Shown: positions 1 through 44,020 of the stretch, in pieces
Position numbering within the stretch: the first letter of the stretch is position 1
Layout of the letters: every line of letters begins with the position of its first letter
Assembly (NCBI RefSeq): GCF_029318685.1
Contig: NZ_CP119677.1
Location: forward strand, 3,649,001-3,713,000
Length of the DNA stretch: 64,000 nucleotides
Source: Ruminiclostridium papyrosolvens DSM 2782
GTDB taxonomy: Bacteria > Bacillota > Clostridia > Acetivibrionales > DSM-1351
Direction of reading: 5' to 3'
The notes under the pieces: generated by a model
Seen by the model: the letters and a program-made list of their open reading frames with translations, nothing else
What the model was told of the DNA's origin: nothing
Database searches by the model: none
Translations under genes and position numbers: made by a program

Positions 1-871
1 CAGTATACAATTCTACTGCTTTTTGGAGATCAACATTACCGCCTCTACCTTGGTAATTGTAAAATGCCAGCCCTTTGTACCCAGCAGGAATTCCCATTTT
101 CATTAATTCATCAAAATATCCTTTAGCTTTCGCATTGTCAATATCAACACCATTGCCCCCCAAATAAATATTTGATAAATTTATTTCTGCTTCTACATCA
201 CCGTCCGAAACTTGTTTTTCATATATTTTAATTGCTTCCGAATAATATTCTCGATATTTCTTTAAGTCAATTTGAACTCCTCTGCCCTCAAGATACATAT
301 CCCCTAACTGACAATATGCCGCAGCACTTCCCTTTTTCGCAGCCTGCTCAAATAATTCTTTTGCTTTATTGTAATCCAAGTCAACCGAATATCCATTTAA
401 ATACATCCAACCAAGATTCATTATCGCATCAGGATAATTTCTATCTGCAGCCTTTGAGAACAGTTGGAATGCTTTTTTATAATCAACTGGATATCCTTCG
501 TAACCATCGTAAATATCTCCGAGTCTATTTTGTGCTTCTGCATCGCCTTTATTTGCTGCTTCAGTATAAAATTTAAGTGTTTTCTCAATGTCAACATCGA
601 CACCTGCACCAAGTTCGTAAAGCATACCTAATCTTGTCTGTGCCTTACTATTGCCCAAGCTGGCAGCTTTCTCATAATAAAGTACTGACTCTGGAAACTT
701 ATGTGCTTTAGAATATCCATCTGCAATGAACATAAAAGCTTTACCAGTAAAGAAAAGGAATCCCAAAGCAATAATTATTAATACCAGAGCAGTCCCAATG
801 ATAAACTTTCCCATGCTGCGTTTTTTCTTGTTTTCTACAATTGAAGTTTCAGCTATCCCATTATTAATCAT
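1..871 (-). CDS. Sel1-repeat membrane-anchored protein (3' end outside window)
   Basis: The frame is open from an ATG at 871 to the window edge (290 codons, no stop), so the C-terminus is missing. GGAGA lies about 8 nt before the ATG. The N-terminus is a short charged cytoplasmic segment with KKKR, followed by a hydrophobic helix (about residues 22-45, FIIGTALVLIIIALGFLFF), so it is predicted to be a signal anchor. After that come at least five to six ~36-residue Sel1-like (TPR-related) units with the typical A-x-x-x-L-G-x-M-Y-x-x-G-x-G-V pattern and D-x-x-K-A spacing. Sel1 proteins usually scaffold protein-protein contacts; no enzymatic domain is visible. It starts 13 bp after the stop of the secreted stalk-domain gene and is probably cotranscribed with it, so both would originally have been downstream of the c-di-GMP riboswitch. 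Confidence 0.85.
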   Translation of the reverse strand, partial: MINNGIAETSIVENKKKRSMGKFIIGTALVLIIIALGFLFFTGKAFMFIADGYSKAHKFPESVLYYEKAASLGNSKAQTRLGMLYELGAGVDVDIEKTLKFYTEAANKGDAEAQNRLGDIYDGYEGYPVDYKKAFQLFSKAADRNYPDAIMNLGWMYLNGYSVDLDYNKAKELFEQAAKKGSAAAYCQLGDMYLEGRGVQIDLKKYREYYSEAIKIYEKQVSDGDVEAEINLSNIYLGGNGVDIDNAKAKGYFDELMKMGIPAGYKGLAFYNYQGRGGNVDLQKAVELYT

Positions 872-884
872 GTGTGTCTCCTTA

Positions 885-2000
885 TTATTTGTTATTTATA
901 ACTATTTCTTGGGATTCTGCGTTCCACTGTACCGAATACCCCATGTTTTCACTAACAAACCGCAGAGGAACCATGGTTCTTCCATTGATGGTCTGTGCTG
1001 CTTCCAGCATTTCCACAGCTTTCCCGTTAACATAGGCTGTTTTAGAGCCAATCTTAAGTTTAATGGTGGTATTGTCTTTTGTGATAAGCACTTCCTGGGT
1101 AGTACCGTTCCACTCCACTGTAGAGCCAAAGGCCTCGGTAATAGCTCTGACAGGAACCAGAGTTGTACCCTTTGGAGCTACTGGAGCTGTATCCAGTATC
1201 ACATTTGAAGATATTCCCGCTTGGTTAATTACCATTTGCTTGCTTTGAAGTTGCAAAGTAACTGTAACTTTCGATTTTTCATTAATGTATTTTTTAAGAT
1301 CATCTAAAGAAGCAAACTTGTCTTCGGTATTTTTAAACTCAATCTTTTCACCATCTGTTAGCTTATAATATTCTTGATAATTTTTAAGCAAGAAGCTTTT
1401 GAATACATAAACAGGCATTCTATCAATGTTATATTTGGCTTTGGCATCCTCAAAGCTCAATTTATCCTCAAAGATTCCTGCAGATAATCCGTTATAGTTC
1501 TTATCTTCACCAATTACATTAAGGTATTCTTGCTTTCCGTTATCCTTCATAGCCTGTATGTAATGGTCCTTATAAATACAATCTTGCCATGGCATCCAAT
1601 TGAGATAAATAACTTCCTTTTTAGGATAGAAAAAAGCAGCCGAACCAAATTCAAATTTGCCCATGTCAGCCTTCTCTCTCTCATAGTATTCATCTACTGT
1701 ATACTTCTTTTGCAGAAATGGTGTCGTTAAATAATCAGTCCATGTACTTGAGAGCCGCAAATTGCCATTAGTTTCTCCAGTATTGTAAATACTTTCATCC
1801 TCACGGGTAATTGTTATATAGTTCGGATACCATTTCCCAGCAATATTGACTTTTGTAAAATCCTCATTGAAGAACCAATCGGTATACTTTAGAGTCATCT
1901 GTTCATCTGCTGCACTGGCAACCGTAATATTAGCAGCCGAAAACATCATCGTAAAGACCATAAATATGGCCAGAATCTTTCTCGTAATTTTCTTTTTCAT
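885..2000 (-). CDS. Secreted stalk-domain (copper amine oxidase N-terminal-like) protein
   Basis: A protein of 371 residues. The start at 2000 (MKKKITRK) is preferred over upstream in-frame codons because it has a GGAG ribosome binding site about 11 nt upstream and begins a clear signal peptide (KKK, hydrophobic core, cleavage near ASA-AD at about residue 30). The middle (about 35-250) is not recognised. The C-terminal ~110 residues hold two copies of the stalk/copper-amine-oxidase-N1 type motif: LVPVRAITEAFG followed by VEWN, and MVPLRFVSENMG followed by VQWN. This domain family is common on extracellular proteins of Clostridia and is thought to bind wall or partner surfaces; it has no copper-oxidase catalytic core. 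Genes of this kind in Clostridia are known c-di-GMP riboswitch targets, which fits the switch found at 4083-4153, now separated from it by an IS. Confidence 0.85.
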   Translation of the reverse strand: MKKKITRKILAIFMVFTMMFSAANITVASAADEQMTLKYTDWFFNEDFTKVNIAGKWYPNYITITREDESIYNTGETNGNLRLSSTWTDYLTTPFLQKKYTVDEYYEREKADMGKFEFGSAAFFYPKKEVIYLNWMPWQDCIYKDHYIQAMKDNGKQEYLNVIGEDKNYNGLSAGIFEDKLSFEDAKAKYNIDRMPVYVFKSFLLKNYQEYYKLTDGEKIEFKNTEDKFASLDDLKKYINEKSKVTVTLQLQSKQMVINQAGISSNVILDTAPVAPKGTTLVPVRAITEAFGSTVEWNGTTQEVLITKDNTTIKLKIGSKTAYVNGKAVEMLEAAQTINGRTMVPLRFVSENMGYSVQWNAESQEIVINNK

Positions 2001-2015
2001 AAATACACACTCCGT

Positions 2016-2023
2016 TATTATTT
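2016..2023. repeat. Left copy of the 8-bp IS target duplication (TATTATTT)
   Basis: Identical to 3974-3981 on the other side of the IS. Removing the IS plus one copy rejoins the 5' leader that contains the c-di-GMP riboswitch to the ribosome binding site of the stalk-domain gene. Confidence 0.9.
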
Positions 2024-2187
2024 GGTAGTGTAAAGATTTACACCCCGTTTTTTTTATTAAACCTTGTATTTTCAAGGGATACACCATCTTTTTTTCAAAA
2101 AAAACAATGACCCCCTGATTTTTTGTCAATAATTGAATTACCACCAACAATTATGGTACAAAAACTCATGAAAGGAAGTCATTGTTT

Positions 2188-3651
2188 ATGGTTACAATTA
2201 TATACCAATTGCTGTTAATTATTCAATACCAGTACAAACAAATTTGCTGGCTAATTCTTTTTATTGCAAGATACATTCCGCTAAGGCAATGGGCACACGA
2301 TGAACTTCATAGCCCAAAGTATCAGAAGTTTCTAACTGACAAGCTCCCCATCATTATACCCTTTGCCAAGCAGGACTGGCAGCTCTGGAATGAGTACTAT
2401 CGTCTTCGCTATGGAAAGGCCACAAAGCCTGTGAAACCCCAAAAGGGTAAACCCCATAGTGTTCCAAGTGATACCATTTGCCCTCTCTGCGGAGCTCCGC
2501 ATGAATACATCTACGACAACAACGGCGGTCGTGGTCAGTTAAAATGCAAGGTTTGCGGTCAGACATTCGTCAATGGCAAAAGGGTCGTTTCCCCATTAAA
2601 ACTCCAGTGTCCCTACTGTGGTCATGCTCTCCAACCGGTCAAGAATCGTAAGCATTTCCGTGTCCACAAATGCATCAATAGCAACTGCTCATATTACAAG
2701 CGAAACACCAAGAAGATACCCAAGGATACTCCGCCATCTGACTACTGGAAGTACAAGCTCCACTACCTCTATCGGGAGTTCTCTGTCAACTTCTTCGACA
2801 TGGACTTGAGCCAGCTCCCTAAGTGGGCAACTTCCTTCAAGTATAAGAAGAACAGCGCCTATATCATGGGGTTGTGCCTAACATATCGAGTAAACTTAAA
2901 GCTATCCCTTCGCCAGACCGTACAGGCCTTAAAGGATATACACAACATTGAGATATCCCATACCATGGTTAACTCCTATGCTAAAACTGCTGCCGTTATC
3001 ATAAAGCCTTTTGTGGACTCATATGACTACAAACCTTCAAACGAACTGGCTGCTGACGAAACCTATATCAAAATCCGAGGCACAAAAGCCTACATATGGC
3101 TTATCATGGATAAAGTATCACGCTCCATACTTGGCTACTGGGTGTCGATGTCCCGTGATGCCGGTCCCTGCATCCTTGCCATGCGCATGGCCTTTGAGAA
3201 GTTCAAAGAGTTTCCAGGCAAGGCTTTGAAATTTATAGCCGATGGCTACAGCGCCTATCCTTTAGCCGCACAGCAGTTCAAGATCGAAAAGGACTGGGAC
3301 GTGTCCGTCACCCAGGTCATAGGGCTTACCAATGACGATGAGGTTTCCAAGGAACACCGCCCATTCAAGCAGATCATTGAACGCCTGAATCGCACCTTTA
3401 AGGAATCCTACCGTGTCACTTGTGGCTACAAGGCTGACGATGGCGCTGTATACAGCACCACTCTTTGGGTTGCCTACTACAATTTCCTACGCCCCCATGA
3501 GAAATCCTGTGGTAAGAAGCCGCTCAATCAGGTGGAGCTTCTGGAAGGCGCAGATAACATGCCTGGCAAGTGGCAACTTCTTATTTACCTTGGACAACAG
3601 GTAATTCTTAAACAACAAACATCCGTAGTCTCCGCTGTTCAGGTGGAATAA
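2188..3651 (+). CDS. DDE (rve-type) transposase with N-terminal zinc ribbons
   Basis: A protein of 487 residues. The ATG at 2188 is chosen because AAGGAAG sits 9 nt upstream; an in-frame TTG lies two codons earlier. A hydrophobic N-terminus is followed by two Cys4-like zinc ribbons (about residues 95-165: CPLCG...CKVCG and CPYCG...C....C). The integrase-like core shows Asp in ADETY (about 290), Asp in ADGYSAY (about 352) and Glu in ERLNRTFKE (about 398, with the E-x6-K pattern), then YYNFLRPH as in rve-type C-terminal regions. The gap between the second Asp and this Glu is larger than the classic ~35 residues; Glu 389 in KEHR is an alternative. It would act on the terminal inverted repeats by a cut-and-paste or replicative route. 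The frame is intact, so the element may be active. Confidence 0.9.
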   Translation: MVTIIYQLLLIIQYQYKQICWLILFIARYIPLRQWAHDELHSPKYQKFLTDKLPIIIPFAKQDWQLWNEYYRLRYGKATKPVKPQKGKPHSVPSDTICPLCGAPHEYIYDNNGGRGQLKCKVCGQTFVNGKRVVSPLKLQCPYCGHALQPVKNRKHFRVHKCINSNCSYYKRNTKKIPKDTPPSDYWKYKLHYLYREFSVNFFDMDLSQLPKWATSFKYKKNSAYIMGLCLTYRVNLKLSLRQTVQALKDIHNIEISHTMVNSYAKTAAVIIKPFVDSYDYKPSNELAADETYIKIRGTKAYIWLIMDKVSRSILGYWVSMSRDAGPCILAMRMAFEKFKEFPGKALKFIADGYSAYPLAAQQFKIEKDWDVSVTQVIGLTNDDEVSKEHRPFKQIIERLNRTFKESYRVTCGYKADDGAVYSTTLWVAYYNFLRPHEKSCGKKPLNQVELLEGADNMPGKWQLLIYLGQQVILKQQTSVVSAVQVE

Positions 3652-3689
3652 TATAACATGATTTTGTCCATAACTTTACTGTAGCATAA

Positions 3690-3840
3690 TTAGGGCAACG
3701 CTGAGGAGCGACCCAAAGCTTGCTGCAGCTTATACGGTGAAGCGGTGGACTATGAGTCTGCCGTTTTCCTTTTTACCGGTAAGCCTTAAGCAAATAAACC
3801 TCGGGAGTTTGAGGGCAGAGCCCTCAAGGTTTTGTGCTGC
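3690..3840 (+). other. Structured non-coding 3' segment of the IS
   Basis: Downstream of the transposase stop the sequence becomes richer in G+C and folds into successive hairpins: a nested stem around GGG...CGCT-GAGG-AGCG...CCC (about 3691-3713), an 8-pair stem GGTGGACT / AGTCTGCC with loop ATG, and a strong stem TTGAGGGC-AGA-GCCCTCAA followed by GGTTTT near 3808-3832. The last one could terminate transposase transcription. No open frame is present. It may be a transposon-end structure or an untranslated RNA; no family was recognised. Confidence 0.5.
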
Positions 3841-4042
3841 AATTATATAAACTATAATCTGACTGTATGCATCCCTATAAACTAAGATATTTACTGAACG
3901 TATCTGCAATTTTCAAGGTTCACCGGAGCATATTTTTTTAACTCTGATTTTTCATAGGATACTTTACACTACCTATTATTTTATAAATAGCACTTCTTTG
4001 AAATAATGTTTTAAGAGGTTTCAGCCTTCCCTCCTTTACACG

Positions 4043-4074
4043 AATAAAAAGCCGCAGCAACTATGCCACAGCTT
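4043..4074 (-). terminator. Intrinsic terminator of the c-di-GMP riboswitch
   Basis: On the minus strand AAGCTGTGGCA, loop TAGT and TGCTGCGGCTT form an 11-pair stem (with G-U pairs) followed by TTTTTATT. It lies directly 3' of the aptamer, as expected for an expression platform. Confidence 0.85.
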
Positions 4075-4082
4075 TCGCAATC

Positions 4083-4153
4083 AATCTGCAACCCGACTGT
4101 CATAGCATCATGCTTTAGACTCGTAGCTTTGTGTCTCTGCCTTTCGACAGATT
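4083..4153 (-). promoter_or_regulatory. c-di-GMP-I (GEMM-I) riboswitch aptamer
   Basis: Read on the minus strand, the segment has the class I hallmarks in order: P1 arm AATCTG, a GTCGAAAGGC hairpin with a GAAA tetraloop, the invariant CAAAGC, a second variable stem, and the tetraloop-receptor strand with CGGGTTGC, closed by the P1 partner CAGATT. Class I aptamers bind c-di-GMP and control transcription or translation of motility, adhesion and surface-protein genes. The terminator 9 nt downstream makes transcriptional control likely. Whether ligand turns it on or off cannot be told from sequence alone. Its natural target is inferred to be the secreted protein gene at 885-2000. Confidence 0.93.
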
Positions 4154-4324
4154 TACTAAAAATCCATATTCAATTTGATGGCAATCTTGTCGCCATTCAC
4201 ATCATGGTATTATATTACAATATTTAAAAGCCAATAGCAATATAATTTCGTATGCCATCAGCTTACTTTGTGCCCAGTCAGTAGCCAAGACAAAGATACA
4301 TATCCAACTGATTAGAATAACAAA

Positions 4325-4660
4325 TATTCAAATATCCATTGGACAACTCCTATATGCTTAAGCATATCCGAGCCATATCTGAAGCATATCCCAAGCCCAG
4401 CATATTGAATAAAACCGCTGTTCACTTCAATCAACCCTAATGGGAAGATAAAGCATATCTGTACAATCCCTTTACGGTCACAAACTCCCGAGTTCTCTTT
4501 ATATATATAAGAAATGCGGGAGTTCAACAAATATTTTTTATGCTGACATTAAGATATGGCTTAAGCATACAACTTCACAATTTTCTTGAGCGTATAGATT
4601 TAGATATGGCTTAAGCTTATACTTTGTTCTGCTTATCCATCCAGACTGGCGGAGTCCGCT
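4325..4660 (+). repeat. Hairpin-centred intergenic repeat, copy A (core inverted)
   Basis: Shares with copies B (22940-23225) and C (28605-28860) the ordered blocks AATAAAACCG, CCCTAATGGGAAGATAAAGC, a palindromic core bounded by AACTCCCG and CGGGAGTT (4483-4524), TATGCTG and GATATGGCTTAAGCATA. Flanking blocks run in the same direction in all three copies, but the AT-rich core between the 8-bp arms is reversed here relative to B and C. Several GCATATC/GATATGGC words occur on each side, iteron-like. No coding potential is seen. Confidence 0.8.
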
Positions 4661-31266: not shown

Positions 31267-31484
31267 ATTAATTCTCCTTTTAATTTGATAGTTTACATAA
31301 TTAATCATTATTTCAACAGTTTTAACACAAAAAAATATACACTTCTCCCTTAGTACAGGCGAAAAAACGATGCAAAATAACGCATCAGTGTAAAAAAGGG
31401 CAAAACTAAAAAACCCTTCCAAATTACTAAAAAACAATATTAAATTTTTATATAATGAATTTTATGAGATATATACAGGATCAG

Positions 31485-31650
31485 TTACATGAGACCATTT
31501 TGTTTTTGCAGTCGCCTGCAAGCTTTGTTTTGTCTCTCTCGACCGTAACAGCCGGAAGGTATCCGCCGAATCTTTCGATACGACACACGTTGTTTTGTGT
31601 ATCGCTTCCTTCTCCTCGTCAACAGACTTATAAAAATCTGCCCTGGCGCC
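31485..31650 (-). ncRNA. glmS self-cleaving ribozyme
   Basis: On the minus strand the leader has GCGCCAGGG, GTTGACGAGGAG, GATTCGGCGGAT, CCTTCCGGCTGTTACGG and AAAACAAAGCTTGCAGG in the family order. Cleavage is expected just 5' of the G at 31649. Binding of glucosamine-6-phosphate triggers cleavage and destabilises the glmS mRNA, giving feedback control. The distance to the glmS start (about 220 nt) is somewhat long. Confidence 0.95.
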
Positions 31651-31732
31651 TTTTTAATTCATATTAATCCTGCCTTTTTTCCCACCTCCCTATTATCCAG
31701 TTATTTCTTGAAGCTATTTACATCTATATTAC

Positions 31733-43731: not shown

Positions 43732-44020
43732 AAAAAAACTCCATCCAATATTTGGACGAAGTCTATTTCGCGGTACCACCAAAATTCACGAATAAATGTT
43801 ACAGGTCAAATTCCTATAAATCTATTGATGATCTCTGACGAGTTAACGTTCGCAACTCCGCTGCAGCCTACTGTTATTTCGGTGCAGAGCTCCCAAGCTA
43901 CCTTCTACAGTCCCGATCCGAAGCTTTTCACCAACCGCTTCTCTCTTTGGGTATCAACAAAACTGTATACTCCTCTTGTTCACAGCCTTTATTCCATATC
44001 ATTTCTTAACAAAAGCTTAT
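43732..44020 (-). promoter_or_regulatory. T-box leader (tRNA-Val sensing)
   Basis: The minus strand carries the T-box GGTGGTACCGCG, preceded by stems I-III (GAGGAGTA, AAAGAGAGAAGC, GGTTGGTGAAAAGC), and a terminator stem ACTTCGTCCA / TGGATGGAGT followed by TTTTTTTATT (43732-43760). Uncharged tRNA would stabilise the antiterminator and allow transcription into the membrane-protein gene and valS. A GUA triplet at 43901-43899 in GAAGGTAGC is a candidate valine specifier; I am not certain of that position. Confidence 0.92.

Follow-up and report, generated by a model that had tools for sequence, protein, structure and literature searches.

Target-specific insertion sequences (IS) are already known. 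IS110/IS1111 and Tn7-type elements choose defined targets by means of enzymes that differ from the transposase described here, and IS110/IS1111 are said to use a guide RNA for this choice. The targets of these elements are not known to be translation starts.

The IS described here is related to the IS6 family. The long clostridial members of this family were assigned to clade VIII or clade i (PMC7986276, PMC6807381). According to the available parts of these papers, members such as ISHahy6, ISHco2, and ISTet2 are about 1.7–1.8 kb long and encode a transposase of about 450 aa with an N-terminal extension, a zinc finger, and an IS6-type DDE domain, with an 8-bp duplication where one was recorded. 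The same parts assign ISCbo1, which has a 344-aa transposase, to clade h/VII, a clade also described with a zinc finger. In 2011, ISCbo1 was reported to carry 8–9-bp direct repeats and to lie mostly "directly upstream a gene" (PMC3098183, available part). This placement is a partial prior notice of the pattern reported below.

Start-site targeting was not mentioned for clade i/VIII in the available parts of these papers. The terms "ribosome binding" and "Shine" did not occur in PMC7986276, nor did "ribosome" and "start codon" in PMC6807381. For ISCbo1, spacing, orientation, and a Shine-Dalgarno (SD) motif were not given, and "ribosom" was absent from the available part of PMC3098183. In open-access full texts, no IS was found that targets translation starts by SD and start codon at a fixed spacing and orientation.

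The insertion sequence and its transposase

The analyzed stretch of 64,000 bp, called the window, covers positions 3,649,001–3,713,000 of the 5.03-Mb single-contig genome of Ruminiclostridium papyrosolvens DSM 2782. The features of the locus are listed in Table 1.

Table 1. Features of the riboswitch and IS locus in the window, by position.
Feature	Position	Strand	Basis or remark
Sel1-repeat protein, second gene of the unit, N-terminal hydrophobic stretch	1..871	-	Pfam Sel1 8.9e-36
Secreted protein with Cu_amine_oxidN1 (stalk) domain	885..2000	-	Pfam 2.5e-37
SD sequence GGAG of the stalk gene, within the target motif	2010..2013	-	
Target duplication, left copy TATTATTT	2016..2023	.	
Insertion sequence, zinc-ribbon IS6-like, 1,950 bp	2024..3973	.	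Ends and duplication
Transposase, 487 aa	2188..3651	+	N-terminal extension, Cys motifs, IS6/IS240-type DDE domain
Candidate outward promoter TTGAAT-N18-TATAAT toward the stalk gene	2197..2226	-	10/12 consensus bases
Two terminator-like hairpins behind the transposase gene	3739..3828	+	4 terminator-like sites versus 2.3 expected in the region
Target duplication, right copy TATTATTT	3974..3981	.	
Intrinsic terminator, riboswitch expression platform	4042..4076	-	13-bp stem 4047-4076 and U-run
c-di-GMP-I riboswitch aptamer (RF01051)	4084..4167	-	Rfam 70.8 bits, gathering 35
Candidate -10 box TATAAT of the riboswitch transcript	4209..4214	-	Sequence reading; surrounding stretch identical in R. cellobioparum

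The IS has 12-bp inverted ends, GGTAGTGTAAAG and CTTTACACTACC, which match at 12/12 positions, and it is flanked by a perfect 8-bp repeat, TATTATTT. The sequence-only reading, a first interpretation of this DNA made without database searches, had taken the duplication as proof of insertion, and this was borne out by the repeats on both sides, the matching ends, the relatives with duplications of their own, and an empty site in another genome. The possibility of a direct repeat by chance was rejected on the basis of the other repeats of the relatives and of the empty site. No second full copy of the IS was found in the genome. Two other families of the order (G046 and G047) have DNA relatives about 89–90% alike, with the same ends and each with its own, different 8-bp duplication. 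In the flanks of these close relatives, the left end (transposase 5' side) stops shortly before an RBS. No transposase relatives were found in viral contigs.

In the alignment, the transposase has three CxxC motifs and a further Cys pair, which is consistent with two zinc ribbons. The DDE domain matched Pfam DDE_Tnp_IS240 (PF13610) at 1e-12 and 48.8 bits against a cut-off of 27, which places it in the broad IS6 family (ISfinder). The NCBIfam model of the IS26-like core, transpos_IS6 (NF033587), gave 77.4 bits, below its cut-off of 125. Compared by published descriptions only, the window IS shares with the clostridial elements of clade i/VIII the N-terminal extension, the zinc finger, the IS6-type DDE domain, and the 8-bp duplication, whereas it is longer (487 aa and 1,950 bp) and scores below the NCBIfam IS6 cut-off. 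These features suggest a zinc-ribbon relative of the IS6 family that is "clade i"-like. By description, it also resembles ISCbo1 in belonging to a zinc-finger clade, in its short direct repeats, and in its position directly upstream of genes, and differs from it in having an extra N-terminal domain.

Most left ends aligned for the lineage contain a conserved inverted repeat, AACAATGAC ... GTCATTGTT, near the transposase start (window ~2090–2190); it is perhaps an operator.

The riboswitch leader and the IS-free locus

The c-di-GMP-I aptamer matched positions 1–87 of its model, above the Rfam gathering cut-off, and a genome search returned three such riboswitches including this copy. The sequence-only reading had correctly recognized a c-di-GMP-I aptamer (70.8 bits), but its extent of 4083–4153 was too short on the 5' side. 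The leftward terminator that it had placed at 4043–4074 was found as a 13-bp stem with a U-run that folds. This stem is conserved in two homologous leaders, one from Ruminiclostridium cellobioparum DSM 1351 (G001), a member of the same genus, and one from a paralogue in the window's own genome. The hairpin folds in all three leaders taken alone and in the whole-leader minimum of two.

Binding of c-di-GMP and switching of expression by the 4084–4167 leader are predicted. In folding, the aptamer is able to pair with the 5' arm of the terminator, with energies that do not decide between ON and OFF. The riboswitch might perhaps be an OFF switch, in which the ligand would hold the aptamer together so that the terminator forms.

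On the minus strand, the order leftward from 4170 is aptamer, terminator, right end of the IS, ribosome binding site (RBS) and stalk gene, and Sel1-repeat gene. The stalk gene starts 23 bases past the IS end, and the Sel1-repeat gene has a complete ORF of 579 aa (in L069). The first description was correct for the RBS, for the start codon (ATG) at 2000, and for the second gene at 1–871. With its aptamer and terminator leader before a surface-protein gene, the locus resembles known riboswitches of RF01051; it differs in that an IS stands between the leader and the gene in this genome.

R. cellobioparum has the same locus without the IS. The gene order is a 136-aa and a 140-aa gene upstream, the aptamer, the terminator, the stalk gene, and the Sel1 gene, and the junction is uninterrupted at the point where the window has repeat, IS, and repeat. 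The distance from aptamer to ATG is 125 bp in R. cellobioparum, and the window has the identical distance of 125 bp after subtraction of the IS and one repeat. The empty site also puts the ATG at 23. In the paralogue, an aptamer, a similar terminator, an RBS, and a stalk gene (50% identical) follow one another with 70 bp from aptamer to ATG. The riboswitch therefore belongs to the stalk gene, since both the IS-free junction and the leader of the paralogue have this arrangement.

The main proposal of the sequence-only reading was that the IS separates the riboswitch from the stalk-domain gene and that its removal rejoins the leader to the RBS. This is supported by the IS-free locus with its identical 125-bp distance. 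In the comparison it had suggested, a relative free of the IS has these two genes immediately downstream of the riboswitch. A riboswitch always placed before another gene, or the lack of an intact junction, would have argued for the opposite, and intact junctions were found in both R. cellobioparum and the paralogue. The third riboswitch of the genome precedes a transglutaminase-type gene. Among 11 genomes of the genus, the leader was found in G000 and G001, and G010 gave only a 32-base match. One relative of the stalk protein was found in named genomes.

The stalk gene is a mosaic when compared in 30-column blocks (window 885–2000; L066:6830–8014; L067:6215–7357). The signal peptide and the C-terminal stalk domain are 83–100% identical to R. 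cellobioparum, and the middle is 12–56% identical. The middle of the R. cellobioparum protein is instead 63–100% like the paralogue of the window's genome.

The locus lies inside an apparent mobile island (window 1–21422 and L069:36–6113) with TnsA-like and Mu/TnsB-like genes, a tyrosine recombinase, HTH regulators, and a type I restriction-modification set; homologous blocks in G001 show 71–93% identity. Iteron-like repeats of the GATATGCTTAAG type occur upstream of the riboswitch (window ~4330–4620 and L066:10397–10656), and a second, related stretch lies elsewhere in the same island. The window also contains a T-box leader at 43749–43992 (-) and a glmS ribozyme at 31481–31661 (-).

Distance between the IS and the downstream start codon

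To compare insertion sites, left ends were located by a script from the terminal repeat alone and never from the flank, and distinct flanks were kept. The main sample comprised 56 distinct copies from 16 genomes, and in 43 of these the 8-bp repeat recurs exactly at the opposite end. G314 contributed 19 copies, G012 13, and G239 7; copies of the same genome are not independent histories, although every counted flank differs. Eleven loci without a locatable left end were dropped before counting (L091, L094, L123, L126, L128, L172, L178, L186, L189, L190, and L196). Also uncounted were L087 and L124, with an ATG at about +23 by hand reading, and L125 (+22), L127 (+25), and L095 (+24).

An ATG was found at +23 (43 copies) or +24 (10 copies) past the transposase-5' end in 53/56 copies, with the gene directed away from the IS. 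The background frequency of ATG in the flanks was 0.019 per position. Among the 43 repeat-bearing copies, the ATG at this spacing was present at 41 left ends versus 0 right ends. The window copy, with ATG at +23 and GGAG at +10, falls into the proposed group of start-site-targeting elements. A 689-bp copy in G047 (L111) has an internal deletion, intact ends, an 8-bp repeat, and ATG at +23; it was probably moved in trans.

A GGRGG SD sequence was present in most copies, most often at +11 to +15, and was less exact than the ATG. The SD was considered as a possible part of the IS, and this was rejected because its sequence varies from copy to copy and its position is beyond the duplication. In a looser test (an SD match of 5 in 7 together with a flank ORF of 50 codons), 48/56 copies passed compared to 2.2% of random positions. 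The second codon was AAA in 33/53 targets (62%) versus 19% in a small control of 36 neighboring genes with an SD. Nearly all counted copies spare coding DNA. Three copies lacked the ATG: L182 is inserted in a sister IS, L133 has neither sign, and L148 (G314) lies at GCGGGGG inside a permease-like ORF, presumably of the uracil-permease type.

A later search of 398 genomes of the phylum yielded 11 new loci. Ends were located in 10 of them, and L201, without a located end, was dropped before counting. For L198 and L204, the ends were placed manually with the help of the repeats and of the boundary common to both copies, a step that was not blind. The ATG was at +23 or +24 in 9/10 loci; the tenth, L206, has GGAGG in place and ATT instead of ATG. 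L207, one of the nine, has neither a clear SD nor a long ORF beside its ATG at +23, and L199 is without an exact repeat.

Eleven plasmid records were matched and six of them examined, with ends located in three: CP008935.1 and CP128455.1 of Geobacillus stearothermophilus and NZ_CP012280.1 of Pediococcus damnosus. All three agree with the pattern, although the CP008935.1 copy is without the 8-bp repeat. The deposited CDS start equals the predicted ATG in both Geobacillus records.

A group of relatives with shorter transposases (354–370 aa, CxxC motifs, no N-terminal extension) comprised seven copies in G480 together with L097 and L098. Here GGAGG was at +13 to +17 in 8/9 copies and GGAGA in the ninth. 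The ATG was anywhere from +23 to +30, and two copies had a further ATG at +20 or +21. Short IS6 elements of the IS26 type have a related DDE domain and no CxxC motifs. In a small sample of three G667 copies of an IS6 member without CxxC, GGRGG and ATG at the spacing and the 8-bp repeats were absent.

Target selection and expression of the displaced gene

An ordinary, random insertion into a single leader, as an isolated accident without a wider pattern, would agree with the single full copy in this genome. It is scarcely credible, however, as 53/56 and 9/10 copies elsewhere share position and orientation and a purine riboswitch has likewise been split from guaB. The target might also be chosen through translation or transcription at the start, by an initiating ribosome, an R-loop, or a guide RNA of the kind said to be employed by IS110/IS1111, rather than through DNA sequence. 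The sites do coincide with gene starts. We regard this as quite improbable, since only the short SD/ATG motif is common to the targets, L148 without a start and L207 without a long ORF are hard to explain in this way, and zinc-ribbon-like Cys motifs are a simpler reader.

Insertion could occur anywhere in intergenic DNA, with survival of only those copies just upstream of an RBS, where the ORF and RBS stay intact and a promoter is supplied. This would agree with the intact coding DNA next to nearly all counted copies and with the available part of a report in which ISCbo1, like most other IS in the genome studied, leaves genes undisrupted (PMC3098183). Survival cannot, however, fix the ATG at +23 or +24 without other spread, enrich AAA behind it, or account for a shorter group in which GGAGG is fixed and ATG is not. 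Furthermore, L148 and L207 bear half of the motif away from a gene start, and right ends show nothing. As the whole explanation, such survival is improbable, and placement could partly reflect it.

It is likely that a zinc-ribbon IS6-related element inserted between the riboswitch and the stalk gene because its transposase selects translation-start DNA. The transposase would read the SD and start codon as a DNA motif. A search of 244 kb of non-IS DNA returned 16 occurrences of GGRGG-N7/8-ATGAA, and 16/16 start an ORF of at least 60 codons; DNA reading alone would therefore suffice to find gene starts. The zinc ribbons may read the SD DNA, and recognition of the start codon may fall to the additional N-terminal domain found in the longer transposases, because the shorter relatives without the extension fix GGAGG only.

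Upon such an insertion, the SD and ORF would stay intact, and the native promoter and riboswitch would be shifted 1.95 kb away. The gene would then be transcribed from an outward promoter located at the 5' end of the transposase and would thereby escape c-di-GMP control. The motif TTGAWW-N18-TATAAT, directed outward, was present in 14/16 distinct transposase 5' ends, and the region has 10 promoter-type sites versus 7.0 expected. The candidate lies within coding DNA, and synonymous shuffles reached its score in 1–12% of trials per sequence; therefore, protein constraint explains part of the motif. Since the outward motif is conserved, IS-driven expression of the stalk gene is plausible. This gene has probably lost c-di-GMP control.

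The riboswitch might instead still control the stalk gene by read-through across the IS, antisense to the transposase. The geometry permits this, and only two terminator-like sites on the minus strand were found, both short and both within the transposase gene. Such control would need 1.95 kb of untranslated RNA and passage through an oppositely transcribed transposase gene, and we consider it doubtful. An antisense effect of the riboswitch transcript on the transposase is geometrically possible.

A broader reading, to which we give an even chance, is that a lineage of DDE IS reads a two-part DNA word of SD and start codon by two separable modules, zinc ribbons for GGRGG and the N-terminal domain for ATGAAA. 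It would dock base-exact upstream of genes in a fixed orientation and act as a mobile replacement 5' leader that frees genes from riboswitch or leader-RNA control. If true, this would explain how an IS multiplies while sparing ORFs, and the transposase would be a natural reader of gene starts. Leader-controlled genes would be a predictable casualty, with two riboswitches split so far.

The second of these is in G239 (L181:1–3518), where a copy of the lineage stands between a purine riboswitch and the IMP dehydrogenase gene guaB. The riboswitch scored 70.7 bits and lies ~65 bp beyond the IS right end; guaB (TIGR01302, 656 bits with a cut-off of 481.5) has its ATG at +24. When 60 IS loci were scanned against Rfam, four leader RNAs and one tRNA were identified. 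Of these leaders, the purine riboswitch alone is directed toward the IS and has the start of its gene behind the left end. The TPP leader is ~850 bp off, the cobalamin leader is directed away, and the PyrR-type leader at L148 faces the permease-like ORF that is cut by the IS.
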